Origin: Aurantimonas marina | GTDB taxonomy: Bacteria > Pseudomonadota > Alphaproteobacteria > Rhizobiales > Rhizobiaceae | DNA: 64,000 bases | Reading direction: 5' to 3' | NCBI RefSeq assembly: GCF_017183135.1 | Contig: NZ_JADDXW010000017.1 | Coordinates: 1 to 64,000, forward strand | Part shown: positions 53,917 to 58,335 of the stretch, piece by piece | Layout of the letters: each line of letters starts with the position of its first letter | How positions within the stretch are numbered: the first letter of the stretch is position 1 | Notes under the pieces: generated by a model | The model's input: the letters and a program-made list of their open reading frames with translations, nothing else | Told to the model about the DNA's origin: nothing | Database searches by the model: none | Program-made: the position numbers and the translations under genes

Positions 53917-54777
53917 TCAAACACCCAGGAGATGTCCGGCGAAGGTCGGGACGGGCGCGCCTGAAACCGCAATGCGCCAAATGACGAACAAGTCCTTGTG
54001 CAGCGGTGGTTCGAGGAAGGGAATGGCCCGCAAGGTTCCGGCCGTCACTTCATCGGTAACGGCCGAGGCCAGAACCAGGGAAATGCCGATCCCGGCCTTC
54101 ACCGCCTGCTTGACGGCTTCCGTACTGCCCAACTCAAGGGAAATCCGCGGCATCTGGGGACTGTCGCCGAAGAACTTGGCGAGTAGCCTTCCCGTCCCGG
54201 TGCCGGATTCGCCGCCGAGAAGCTCGAATCCCGCCAGGCACTCTCGGTCGATTTTGGACCGAGCCGCCAGCGGATGGTCCGGTGGAACGATCACCACGAC
54301 CGGTTCGCGTCGCCAATGCTTGGAGCGGAATCCTGAGCGGTTGTCCCACCACTCCATTACGGCCACATCCACCTCGCCGTGTTCCAGCTTCGCTGCGATG
54401 CTTGGGTTGCGGTCGATCACGATTTCGAAAGCGGAGGGGTGACGGGCCTGAAGATAGGATCGGATGTGGGGCTGGAGAAGGTAGATGCCGATGTTCGAAC
54501 TGGCGCCGACTCGGAGCCGTTCCCCAGAAATCGCGGCGAGCGCACGCTCGTTTGCTCGGCGGATGCTCTGGGCATAGGGCAGAAAGTTCAGCGCCTCGCG
54601 CGTCGGGTCGCAGCCGGTCCGGGATCGATGAAACAGCGAGGCGCCAAGCTGTTCTTCCAGCTTCTGGATGTGCAGCGAGGCTGTCGGCTGAGCAATGTGA
54701 AGCTGCTCGGCCGCCGCTTGAAAGCTCCTGTGGTCAATGAGAGCCAGAAATGTCCGGACCCATACGGGATTCAGCAT
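53917..54777 (-). CDS. ptxE: LysR-family regulator of phosphite oxidation
   Basis: A 286-residue LysR regulator. The helix-turn-helix is LIDHRSFQAAAEQLHIAQPTASLHIQKLEEQLGASLFHRSRTG, followed by a LysR substrate domain (LLGGESGTGTGRLLAKFFGDSP). Its position directly after ptxD (seven bases) in the order ptxA-B-C-D-E identifies it as PtxE. I start at ATG 54777. Upstream of ptxA lies a T-N11-A palindrome that it could bind. Confidence 0.88.
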   Translation of the reverse strand: MLNPVWVRTFLALIDHRSFQAAAEQLHIAQPTASLHIQKLEEQLGASLFHRSRTGCDPTREALNFLPYAQSIRRANERALAAISGERLRVGASSNIGIYLLQPHIRSYLQARHPSAFEIVIDRNPSIAAKLEHGEVDVAVMEWWDNRSGFRSKHWRREPVVVIVPPDHPLAARSKIDRECLAGFELLGGESGTGTGRLLAKFFGDSPQMPRISLELGSTEAVKQAVKAGIGISLVLASAVTDEVTAGTLRAIPFLEPPLHKDLFVIWRIAVSGAPVPTFAGHLLGV

Positions 54778-54784
54778 TGCAGCA

Positions 54785-55792
54785 CTATGCCACCTGTCCC
54801 GGTTCGTTGGCGGCATCCATCGGCCTCTTGCCGGAGAACACTTGAAGGATGTTTTCCGCCGCGCGCAACTCAATCGCCAGACGGACCTTTTGCACGGCCG
54901 AGCCGATATGCGGACTGAATATCGTATCTGGATGGTTTAGCAGCCCAGCCTGGATCTCGCGGGGCCGATCCTCGCGCGAGCGATCTTCAAACTCGAATAC
55001 GTCAGCAGCGTAGCCGCCCAGCCGACCGCTGCTCAGCGCCGTCAGCACGGCCGCCTCGCTCACGACGGAGCCGCGGCACGGATTGACGAGGTAGGCGCCC
55101 GGTTTCATTAGCCTCAAGGTCCTCTCATTGATGACGTGGACAGTGTCTGCGGCGAGCGACAGCGCGAGGATCACGATATCGGATTCTGCCAGCAAACCGT
55201 CCAGGCTGCGCCGAGCGATCCCGAGGCGGGCCGCGACGGTGTCTGAAGCCGGCGTCCGGTCGGCGTAGAGCAGCACCGCGCCCCAACCGTTCAACCGCTC
55301 AGCGAGCGCCATCCCGATCGCGCCCATCCCGACAATGCCGATGGTTGAGCCGCTGATGCCCAGACCGTAGAATTCCGGCCGCCAGCCGGCGAACTTGCCG
55401 CCGCGCACCTTGGCGTCGGCCGGGATCATCTTCCGCGTCAACCCGATCGTGAGGCCGACCGCCAGTTCGGCCGTCGGAACGGTCAGGAGGTCGGGCACGA
55501 AGCTCAGCCACACACCCCGGGCAGTACAGGCGGCAACATCGAAATTGTCATAACCCTTGAGCGCCGCACCGATGACCCTCAATTTCGGGCAGGCGTCCAG
55601 AAAGGCGGCATCCACCCGATCCGGCATGAAGGCCATCATGGCATCGGCTTGGCTGACGCGGCGAACGACTTCTTCCGCGGGCAGGGTCTCGGGCGTCTGA
55701 TTGGCGTCGAGGTCACACTCGGCCCCGAGCAGGTCAAGGACCTCCTGATGAACTGCATGGGTAATGACGACACGTGGTTTCACACCAGCCAA
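54785..55792 (-). CDS. ptxD: Phosphite dehydrogenase
   Basis: It oxidises phosphite to phosphate with NAD+. The 335-residue sequence aligns without gaps in the core to the known Ptx[49 protein letters not shown], Rossmann motif GIVGMGAIG (152-160), and NPCRGSVV. The catalytic set K79, R240, E269 and H295 corresponds to K76, R237, E266 and H292 of Pseudomonas stutzeri PtxD. At the cofactor site, residues 178-179 are Asp-Arg where that enzyme has Glu175-Ala176. It sits between ptxC (two bases away) and ptxE. Confidence 0.97.
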
Positions 55793-55794
55793 CC

Positions 55795-56610
55795 TTATTT
55801 GAACTTCTTGCGGAGGTAGCCGCTCATCCCGTCGACAAGCGTGACCATCGCAAGGATGACGAGCAGGATGGCGCTGACTTCCTGATATTGCATGATGCGC
55901 AGCGACCCCATCAACTCGAAGCCGATGCCGCCCGCGCCCACCATGCCCATTACCGTGGACGCCCTGAAATTGTACTCCCAGCGATAGATGGAGACGTCGG
56001 CAAATTGCGGTAGGACCTGCGGCAGCACGGCGTGAAACAGCACCTGGAGCGGGGTGGCGCCCGCCGCTCGCGCCGCCTCGACCGGTGCTTCATCCATATG
56101 CTCGATCGACTCGGCGAAGAACTTGCCCACCATGCCCACCGAGTGCAGCCCGAGCGCCAGGACGCCCGGAAGGGCGCCGAAGCCGACCGCCGCCACGAAG
56201 ATGATGCCCATGATAAGCTCGGGTACCGAGCGGAGCGCGTTGAGCAGCGTGCGGGCGAGGTGGAACACGGCCGGATGCGGGGCCGTGTTCCGGGCGGCCA
56301 GGAAAGCCAGCGGAAAGGAAAGGATCACCGCCATCGCCGTCCCGGCAACGCTCATCGCCAGGGTATCCACCAGCGGCCTGATCCAGTCCCACGCATTGGT
56401 GAAGTCCGGCGGCATCGCTTCGCCGCCGAGCGTCAGAATGGCCGGGATCCCGTCGGCCAGCACTCCGAAATCCAGGATGCCGACATACCAGAACGCTATC
56501 AGCACGATCCCGAGGACGGCGGCACCCTGGGCGGTCTGGCGGATCCATGCCCGACCGTATTGATCCAGATAGTAGTGACTCGTGCGGGATTCGGCGGTTG
56601 CGGTCGACAT
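55795..56610 (-). CDS. ptxC: Phosphite ABC transporter permease
   Basis: A 271-residue PhnE/PtxC-type permease with about five or six helices. The loop region is [59 protein letters not shown], diagnostic for phosphonate/phosphite importers. It starts ten bases after ptxB and ends two bases before ptxD. Confidence 0.94.
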
Positions 56611-56620
56611 CTTCGCCCCC

Positions 56621-57481
56621 TCACATCGTCGCGAAGTCGAGATTGAGCAGCTTGCCCAATTCGCGGATGACGTCGTAGTCCGTGTCGGCGATCGGCGCGA
56701 AACCGTCCGCCTTGAAGTTCTTCAGCACCGTCGCGTCCTTCAGGTTGACAAAGGAACCGCGAATCTTGTCCTTCAGCGCCGGGTCGAGGTCGGACCGCAT
56801 CGTCCAAGGATATTGCGGGTAGTCCTTGCTGTAGCCGAGGACCTTGACCTTGCTCGCGTCGACCAGCTTTCGTTCGATCAGCGTATTCCAGATCACCTCG
56901 GAAAGGCCGCCGGCGTCGGCATTGCCGTTGGCCACGTTCATAGCCACGGCGTCGTGGCTGCCGACGAAATGTTGCTGATAGTCGCGCTCGTGCACCAGCC
57001 CTGCTTCCGCCATCATCGACTTCGGGATCAGATGGCTGGAGGTGGAGGCGCGATCGCCGAAGGCGACCTTCTTGCCCTTGATGTCGCCGATGGTGTTCAC
57101 GCCGGCTTCGGCGTTGGCGATCACCACGGCCCGATAGGTCGCCTTGCCGTCGCTGACCATCGCCGCGAACGGTTCGATTTCGGCTTTCGTCTTGGCCAGC
57201 ACGTAAGAGAGCGGGCCGAAATAGGCGATATCGATCCGGCCGAAGCGCATCGCCTCGATCATCGACGAGTAGTCGGTCGTCACGATCAGCTCAATCTCCT
57301 TCCCGAGCTCACGCTCAAGGTGATCCTTGAGCGGCTGGTTGCGCTTGATCAGTTCGGACGCATTCTCATCCGGCAGCAGGGCCACCTTCAGCGTGTCGGG
57401 ATTGGCCTCGGCGGCCATCGCCGGCGCGGTCAGCCCCATGGCCAGGACGGCGGTCAGGGCAAGTTTCAGCAAGCGGTTCAT
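56621..57481 (-). CDS. ptxB: Phosphite-binding periplasmic protein
   Basis: A 286-residue PhnD-like binding protein with a signal peptide ending GLTAPAMAA. The mature part has [58 protein letters not shown] and [14 protein letters not shown], the oxyanion pocket loop. It begins at ATG 57481 inside the ptxA stop (ATGA overlap), with GGAG eight bases upstream. Confidence 0.94.
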
Positions 57482-58335
57482 AGGGACATCTCCATTTCGG
57501 GGGTGAACACGGGTTTGACGGGGATTTCGCCGCCCATGGGACTCTCGGGCGCCTGCTCGTTCGGGCGCTTGTGCCCGGCATAGATCTCGCCGAGCCGGGC
57601 CTCGCTGAGGTCCCGCGCGGCCCCGTCGAACACGATGCGCGCATTGGCAAGGCCGACGATTCGATCGGCGAAACGCTGGGCGTATTCCAGCTGATGGAGC
57701 GAGACGACGGCGGTGATGCCGTCCTCCTTGCAGATCTGGCGCAACAGTCCGAGCACTTTCTCCGAAGTCGCCGGGTCGAGGCTGGCGACCGGCTCGTCGG
57801 CCAGAATCAGGGTCGGCTGCTGCGCGAGCGCCCGCGCGATGCCGACGCGCTGCTGCTGGCCGCCGGACAGCTGGTCGACGCGGCTCATCGCCTTGTCGGC
57901 CAGGCCGACGCGCTCGAGGCAATGAAGGGCGAGTTCCAGTTCCGGGCGGGGCAGCGGAAAGAAGCTCCGCAACGTTCCATGGTAGCCCAAACGTCCCGTG
58001 AGCACGTTCGCCAAGGCGCTGAAGCGCTCGATCAGCTGGTGATGCTGGAAGACGAACGCCGTCTGGCGCCTATGCTGGCGCAATGCCTTCGCGGAGCCTA
58101 GCGCCCCGAACTCAGGCGAGACCACCTCGCCGGAGGTGGGGCGCACCAACAGGTTCAGCGAACGCAGCAGGGTCGATTTCCCGGCACCTGAAAGCCCCAG
58201 TAGGACCGTAAACTCGCCCTTACGGAATTCGACGTTGGCGCATTGGAGCGCAACGACCCCATTCGGATAGGTCACTCCGACATTGCTGACCCGCAGCCCC
58301 CCCGGCGGTGACTTCAGGGCTGGTTCACACCTCAT
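57478..58335 (-). CDS. ptxA: Phosphite ABC transporter ATPase
   Basis: A 285-residue PhnC/PtxA-type ATPase: Walker [17 protein letters not shown]-loop FVFQHHQLI, signature [17 protein letters not shown], Walker [14 protein letters not shown] and the switch in SLHQLEYA. It is the first gene of the phosphite operon. The upstream region holds a candidate Pho box and a LysR-type palindrome. Confidence 0.94.

Follow-up and report, generated by a model that had tools for sequence, protein, structure and literature searches.

A ptxABCDE phosphite-oxidation operon as the probable cargo of an integrative mobilizable element with an attachment site inside its recombinase gene

The ability to use phosphite is patchily distributed in bacteria, and to our knowledge the travel of the ptx operon is rarely visible. 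Here we describe a 64,000-nucleotide stretch of Aurantimonas marina (contig NZ_JADDXW010000017.1, positions 1 to 64,000; hereafter the window), in which the phosphite-oxidation operon ptxABCDE is very probably the cargo of a 12,063-bp integrative mobilizable element (IME) that would be mobilized in trans and, judging from sequence, holds its attachment site (attP) inside its own recombinase gene (Table 1). The sequence and its relatives directly show the two ends of the IME, the genes it carries, a slot for cargo that stretches from traD to the right end and, at the end opposite the recombinase gene, a 3' tail for that gene.

The boundaries of the IME emerge from relatives that share its ends. 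At the left, the sequence CTTCAGTCCCTGAGTGGGCACTG starts at 46684, preceded by just 26 nt that resemble the 3' end of a tRNA-Ser gene. The same sequence lies directly 3' of an intact tRNA-Ser gene in L120, L122, L124, L147, L148 and L150, with anticodons CGA, GCT, TGA, TGA, CGA and TGA, respectively; the exact left end thus abuts an intact tRNA-Ser gene in 6 of 7 loci, the window being the exception. At the right, a pattern consisting of AGGGCTATGGC, a following TCATCA and 20 nt ending in CCGC(C/T)A is common to the window (58697-58746), L120, L124, L147 and L121, and directly past CCGC(C/T)A the five sequences diverge. These common ends therefore place the window IME at 46684-58746. The complete relative elements measure 12,018 bp (L120), 13,861 bp (L124) and 14,935 bp (L147). 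In a short relative, L121 (to 4935, G032:C5), the left end is missing, tra genes are absent and hardly any sequence separates the recombinase region from the right end. The right-end pattern gave 0 exact matches in viral contigs.

These limits revise the first-pass annotation, which had drawn the element as 46650-59340 and expected the right attachment site beyond the window: that site lies inside, at 58746, and the IS481 remnant lies outside the IME. The transposase is indeed decayed, as had been claimed. IS481 was rejected as a boundary because the remnant begins 10-16 bp past the end of the IME and other relatives contain similar DNA. Separately, DNA like that at 58757-58912 is found 10-17 bp downstream of tRNA-Gly in L116 (5684-5923) and L130 (5231-5830). 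No intact tRNA-Ser gene is present in the window, where the sole tRNA gene is that for tRNA-Gly (45282-45361); tRNA-Gly was rejected as the target, since in relatives the exact left end is found at tRNA-Ser genes and the fragment on the left is similar to tRNA-Ser(GGA) 3' ends. A comparison of base composition, also proposed at first pass, revealed no contrast between the IME (GC 0.638) and its flanks (0.642 and 0.636) and is uninformative as a mark of transfer.

Between these ends, the recombinase, TraA and TraCD genes keep the same order in the relatives, and the slot from traD to the right end, filled by ptxABCDE in the window, holds other genes: one for a GmrSD-type protein in L120, one for a glyoxalase-family protein in L124, and those for an ABC transporter and an arginase-family protein in L147. 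Five of the ten cargo-slot proteins of relatives that were scanned have no Pfam match. The expectation that the vehicle of ptx might be visible here is borne out insofar as the tra module and ptx belong to one element, whose end beyond ptx is shared by relatives; it is qualified by the existence of other vehicles, described below.

Several observations weigh against this reading. The left site of the window is only a tRNA-Ser fragment, and the right core reads CCGCTA rather than CCGCCA. A precise empty site was not found for the L147 or L124 sites: the sequences that flank the L147 element lie about 1.8 kb from each other in G543, versus 14.9 kb, and the L124 flanks returned nothing useful. 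No circular form of the IME was seen. Outside the window, the genome contains two more incomplete traA-traD copies, on contigs C31 and C20; both run on into other DNA and break off inside traA at a contig end. In the comparison, which covered 80 relatives, only 3 of 266 own-genome candidates were scored. Finally, L010, from an Aurantimonas coralicida metagenome-assembled genome (same contig as G006:C13), shares only 53922-58604, at 96% identity; its ptx block lies outside such an IME, and the genes around it are insertion-sequence genes, one weak ATP-binding match aside. The left site may nevertheless be an older attachment fragment that the IME used, because similar tRNA-Ser fragments occur without the element elsewhere in the family (L136, L137 and L138); in its own genome, the 26-nt fragment occurs once at ≤3 mismatches.

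The L010 block bears on the possibility that the IME ended near traD and that ptx arrived independently as a separate insertion beside it. As L010 shares just the operon itself, ptx can move without the tra module. The first-pass annotation held that ptx at the same locus in relatives without the module would speak against its reading; this arrangement was not seen in the 80 relatives, but the L010 block represents a module-free copy elsewhere. Against a separate insertion, however, the window has a right end belonging to this family on the far side of ptx, L120, L124 and L147 fill the slot with other genes, and a search of the window for Tn3 terminal repeats gave 0 matches at ≤3 mismatches, the ground on which a Tn3-family ptx transposon nested within the IME was also rejected. 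We regard a separate insertion as highly improbable. The partial copies raise another possibility, namely that the recombinase half and the half from traD through ptx to the right end come from two related IMEs, joined in traA by recombination or by the assembler. The genome holds three copies of the traA region, 90-97% alike over their shared parts, and because the C31 and C20 copies both end within traA, the assembler may have made a join in this repeated gene. Yet the traD-ptx and ptx-right-end junctions lie outside the repeated stretch, searches of the genome at ≤3 mismatches found a single right end and a single exact left end, and ptx would be IME cargo in any case; a composite origin thus appears unlikely.

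The IME at 46684-58746 has a further peculiarity at its right end. Within the integrated IME, the recombinase frame has no stop codon. In 24 of the 28 loci read, among them the window, the frame crosses the junction by way of a WR pair; in the remaining 4 it is cut or frameshifted. In 19 of the 28 it contains DSN, encoded by the antisense strand of the tRNA T-loop. At the opposite end, the recombinase strand read from the core TGGCGG encodes WR..D(D/E)(N/H)YVYAIAL. Of 394 family genomes, 48 contain the right-end pattern, at 65 sites in all; the reversed control had 0 among the matches listed. Tails were read at the 30 of 65 sites that became loci, in further fetched regions and in L147, which gave 33 distinct tails: 27 start with WR, one (the window) with a stop codon and R, and five with neither. 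An immediate in-frame stop follows 17 of the 33 (13 TAA, 3 TGA and 1 TAG), compared with 0 and 2 in the shifted frames, and 27 have a stop within six codons. Additionally, the recombinase C-terminus is contiguous with the tail in two natural loci, a remnant in G733 and the Agrobacterium plasmid pAtCG920, where it is unannotated. Plasmid records matching the 61-residue G733 end, in which the WR junction forms residues 45-46, number 18: 13 matches stop at residue 46-48 and one at residue 38, three cover the tail side only and one covers both sides. Another candidate, L182/L205, was rejected as a contiguous case, being a remnant with a short recombinase part before the tail and other sequence in the rest of the frame.

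The frame, the stops, the contiguous loci and the plasmid matches therefore indicate that attP lies inside the recombinase gene and that integration separates the tail from it. It is well supported by these sequence features that the native C-terminus is replaced on integration by codons from the antisense strand of the tRNA. In the window the first tail codon is TAG because the core reads CCGCTA, a base belonging to the element or the flank depending on the crossover point. The right end might instead be conserved purely as an attP arm bound by the recombinase, which must bind attP, and not as a coding tail. Such an arm would fit the nearly equal diversity at the three positions of tail codons 3-8 (0.32, 0.33 and 0.37; counted without the five tails lacking a WR or stop-R start) and those five tails themselves. 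Third-position variation was accordingly set aside as proof of coding, being weak in codons 3-8; mismatches to the non-wildcard columns of the search pattern (33/330, 5/297 and 19/198 by codon position) are biased, since wildcards were chosen from known variants. On the other hand, conservation is strongest well away from the core, the immediate stops favour one frame, and two natural loci run from the recombinase C-terminus into the tail, which together make a mere binding arm improbable.

If the tail is coding, as we favour, a recombinase with its native tail would be made only from the circle, because attP lies inside the gene. The tail swap may have a regulatory role. We tentatively propose, as a possibility we would not yet count on, a family of bacterial serine recombinases with attP in the gene, in which the circle enzyme ends in ...DNYVYAIAL and the integrated form in antisense-tRNA residues, so that the swap reports the integration state, perhaps via stability or directionality. 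As a lead only, the tail shares DNY with the host ssrA (tmRNA) tag ANDNYAEARLAA.

The class of the element is known, whereas the split-recombinase arrangement was not found described. The traACD IMEs of Mesorhizobium (IMEMl R88B-like), as far as the accessible text goes, include a putative recombination directionality factor gene, tRNA-Ser sites and serine recombinases on five IMEs (PMC8627217). Like the window IME, they carry a Ti-like traA divergent from traC/traD around the origin of transfer (oriT), with the putative directionality factor gene downstream of traA and insertion beside tRNA genes including tRNA-Ser; unlike them, the window IME carries phosphite cargo, and an attP inside the recombinase gene is without mention in the portions of that source available (PMC8627217). 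In sequence, the window element shows a recombinase with both attachment ends and a relaxase with a probable oriT, but no type IV secretion system (T4SS), as expected of this class. Self-disrupting recombinases are described as exclusively archaeal in the available part of a review, according to which the suicidal SSV-type integrases have attP within the integrase gene, and integration separates the gene (PMC8371274). Similarly, attP appears from sequence to lie within the integrase frame in the window. In contrast to SSV-type elements, in which an archaeal tyrosine recombinase is cut in two (PMC8371274), the window gene encodes a bacterial serine recombinase that would lose only a short C-terminal tail. 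Mycobacteriophage BPs, in the text accessible to us, has attP inside its repressor gene and loses a degradation tag on integration (PMC4557955). Its integration-dependent immunity resembles the window in that attP lies within a reading frame and integration removes a C-terminal tail; there, however, the gene encodes a repressor with an ssrA-like tag on the tail (PMC4557955), and here a recombinase. Our literature search, with subscription papers mostly outside its scope and the sources available in part, recognised no bacterial serine recombinase with attP inside its own gene.

Table 1. Coordinates of the IME, its genes and neighbouring features in the window
Feature	Positions	Strand	Basis or remark
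Large serine recombinase	46654-48327	-	Resolvase, Recombinase and zinc-ribbon domains; last codons (46654-46683) outside the IME, in the tRNA-like fragment
tRNA-Ser-like 3' end, 26 nt	46658-46683	+	Left of the IME, outside; like tRNA-Ser(GGA) 3' ends
IME, 12,063 bp	46684-58746	.	Both ends common to relatives
HigA-type antitoxin	48344-48667	-	HTH_3
HigB-type toxin of toxin-antitoxin pair	48667-49035	-	PF05015, 3.8e-30
AlpA-family regulator, putative recombination directionality factor	49297-49635	-	PF05930, 3.3e-16; downstream of traA
TraA relaxase-helicase, Ti type	49644-52772	-	TIGR02768 and NF041496 above cut-off
Probable oriT, 32 bp	52798-52829	.	Inverted repeat ACGTCG/CGACGT plus TATAAGCGCGCCCT, between traA and traC
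TraC-like (TraD family) accessory protein	52932-53270	+	PF06412, 8.9e-17
TraD accessory protein	53272-53538	+	PF06412, 3.6e-22
ptxE, LysR-type regulator	53917-54783	-	Open reading frame (ORF) list and family search
ptxD, phosphite dehydrogenase	54785-55792	-	Structure matches and residue check
ptxC, permease	55795-56610	-	TIGR01097 (PhnE model), 294 bits, cut-off 217
ptxB, substrate-binding protein	56621-57484	-	Closest solved structure PtxB 5o2j, 2.2e-125
ptxA, ATPase	57478-58335	-	TIGR02315 (phnC model, NCBIfam), 305 bits, cut-off 266
Inverted repeat ATTGCG-N3-CGCAAT, candidate PtxE operator	58368-58382	.	Upstream of ptxA
Three TCAT-ending repeats, 11-bp period, candidate Pho box	58409-58437	-	Upstream of ptxA
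Right end of the IME	58693-58746	-	Minus strand encodes recombinase tail ..DEHYVYAIAL and stop
IS481 remnant, partial, outside the IME	58757/58763 to ~59275		106-aa ORF, rve_3 24.7, cut-off 26.5

The Ti-type transfer module reported beside ptx at first pass is upheld by domain and family models for the recombinase, HigBA, AlpA, TraA and TraCD, and includes a probable oriT. TraA scores 884 bits on TraA_Ti (cut-off 590) and 251 on MobQ (cut-off 200), and the 32-bp oriT candidate differs at 0-2 positions across eight other aligned copies. Within traA, 15-bp-period repeats at 52028-52131 encode a repetitive RAETHR-type protein stretch. By analogy with the position of the putative directionality factor gene in the Mesorhizobium IMEs, AlpA would fill that role. 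None of the listed ORFs of the IME is a T4SS gene. The genome has a single TrbE/VirB4-family (PF03135) match and a single TraG-type coupling-protein (PF02534) match, both on contig C6 at 70870-75960, and this system may mobilize the IME. Specifically, the serine recombinase, probably with AlpA, would excise the IME; TraA would nick oriT, aided by the two TraD-family proteins; the host trb-type T4SS and coupling protein would carry the IME to a new cell; and there the recombinase would join the circle to the 3' end of a tRNA-Ser gene. HigBA would favour retention of the IME.

In this operon family, PtxABC imports phosphite and PtxD oxidises it to phosphate. The ptxABCDE operon (58335-53917, minus strand) is complete and intact, as first noted, with all five frames open, gene order kept, tight spacing, and family and structure matches; the start codons of ptxB and ptxE are the analyst's choice, the mechanical ORFs being longer. 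The top solved relatives of PtxD are the phosphonate/phosphite dehydrogenases 9pr0 (3e-133) and 4e5n (5e-133). Among the residues that we take to be important in PtxD (M53, K76, W134, Y139, E175, A176, R237, E266, H292, P293 and R301), the window enzyme keeps M53, K76, W134, Y139, R237, E266, H292 and R301, and carries D for E175, R for A176 and I for P293. Compared with the Pseudomonas stutzeri-type ptxABCDE, the window operon has the same five genes in the same order; unlike that operon, it lies within an IME, and its PtxD has D and R where the P. stutzeri enzyme has E175 and A176. The Asp-Arg pair at 175-176 suggests that cofactor preference may be relaxed. A solved PtxD A176R variant was found among the structure matches. 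Upstream of ptxA, the inverted repeat ATTGCG-N3-CGCAAT may be the PtxE operator; it is perfect in the window, L011 and L014, with an imperfect version in L010. The TCAT-ending repeats have the same layout in L010 and are represented by a single weaker site in L014; judged against the Pho box consensus, they are a putative site of this kind. The cargo would thus let the host import and oxidise phosphite under the control of PtxE and probably PhoB.

PtxD at window-like similarity is rare: in a sample of 397 genomes from the order, two passed E 1e-105, including that of the window itself, and the L010 genome is not among the hits of this sample. PtxD matches occur in 2,642 plasmid records, all at 80% identity or below. 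Nearly identical ptx operons occur in L012-L018, from Methylobacterium, Xanthobacteraceae, Afipia and Bradyrhizobium. L014, L015 and L017 carry ptx within a unit of 9.0 kb that also encodes a Tn3-family transposase and a resolvase and has 34-bp terminal repeats, to which the window has no match at ≤3 mismatches; by eye, these units are flanked by the 5-bp duplications AGGAT, ATGAG and ATCAA. L018 stops at the Tn3 terminal repeat, and the shared stretch is 5.2-5.9 kb long in L012, L013 and L016. Afipia and Bradyrhizobium have nearly identical copies of the transposon, whose insertion sites differ in their 5-bp duplications. In L014 the unit (7093-16118) has a coupling-protein gene on one side and a relaxase gene on the other. 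In the accessible portion of a review of phosphite metabolism, transfer is mentioned for one dissimilatory phosphite oxidiser (PMC10746228), and our literature search, within the limits given above, found no report of phosphite genes or ptxABCDE on a Tn3 or other transposon.

Taken together, one genome displays a defined 12-kb ptx vehicle, and comparison reveals a second, unrelated one, a Tn3-family transposon of which several genera hold 5.2-9.0 kb in nearly identical form. The IME is thus one vehicle among several, and ptx does not depend on it. The window IME also exposes a bacterial recombinase gene that the element's own attachment site interrupts, an arrangement whose effect is directly testable. 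If the proposed family is real, self-interrupting recombinases would not be exclusively archaeal.

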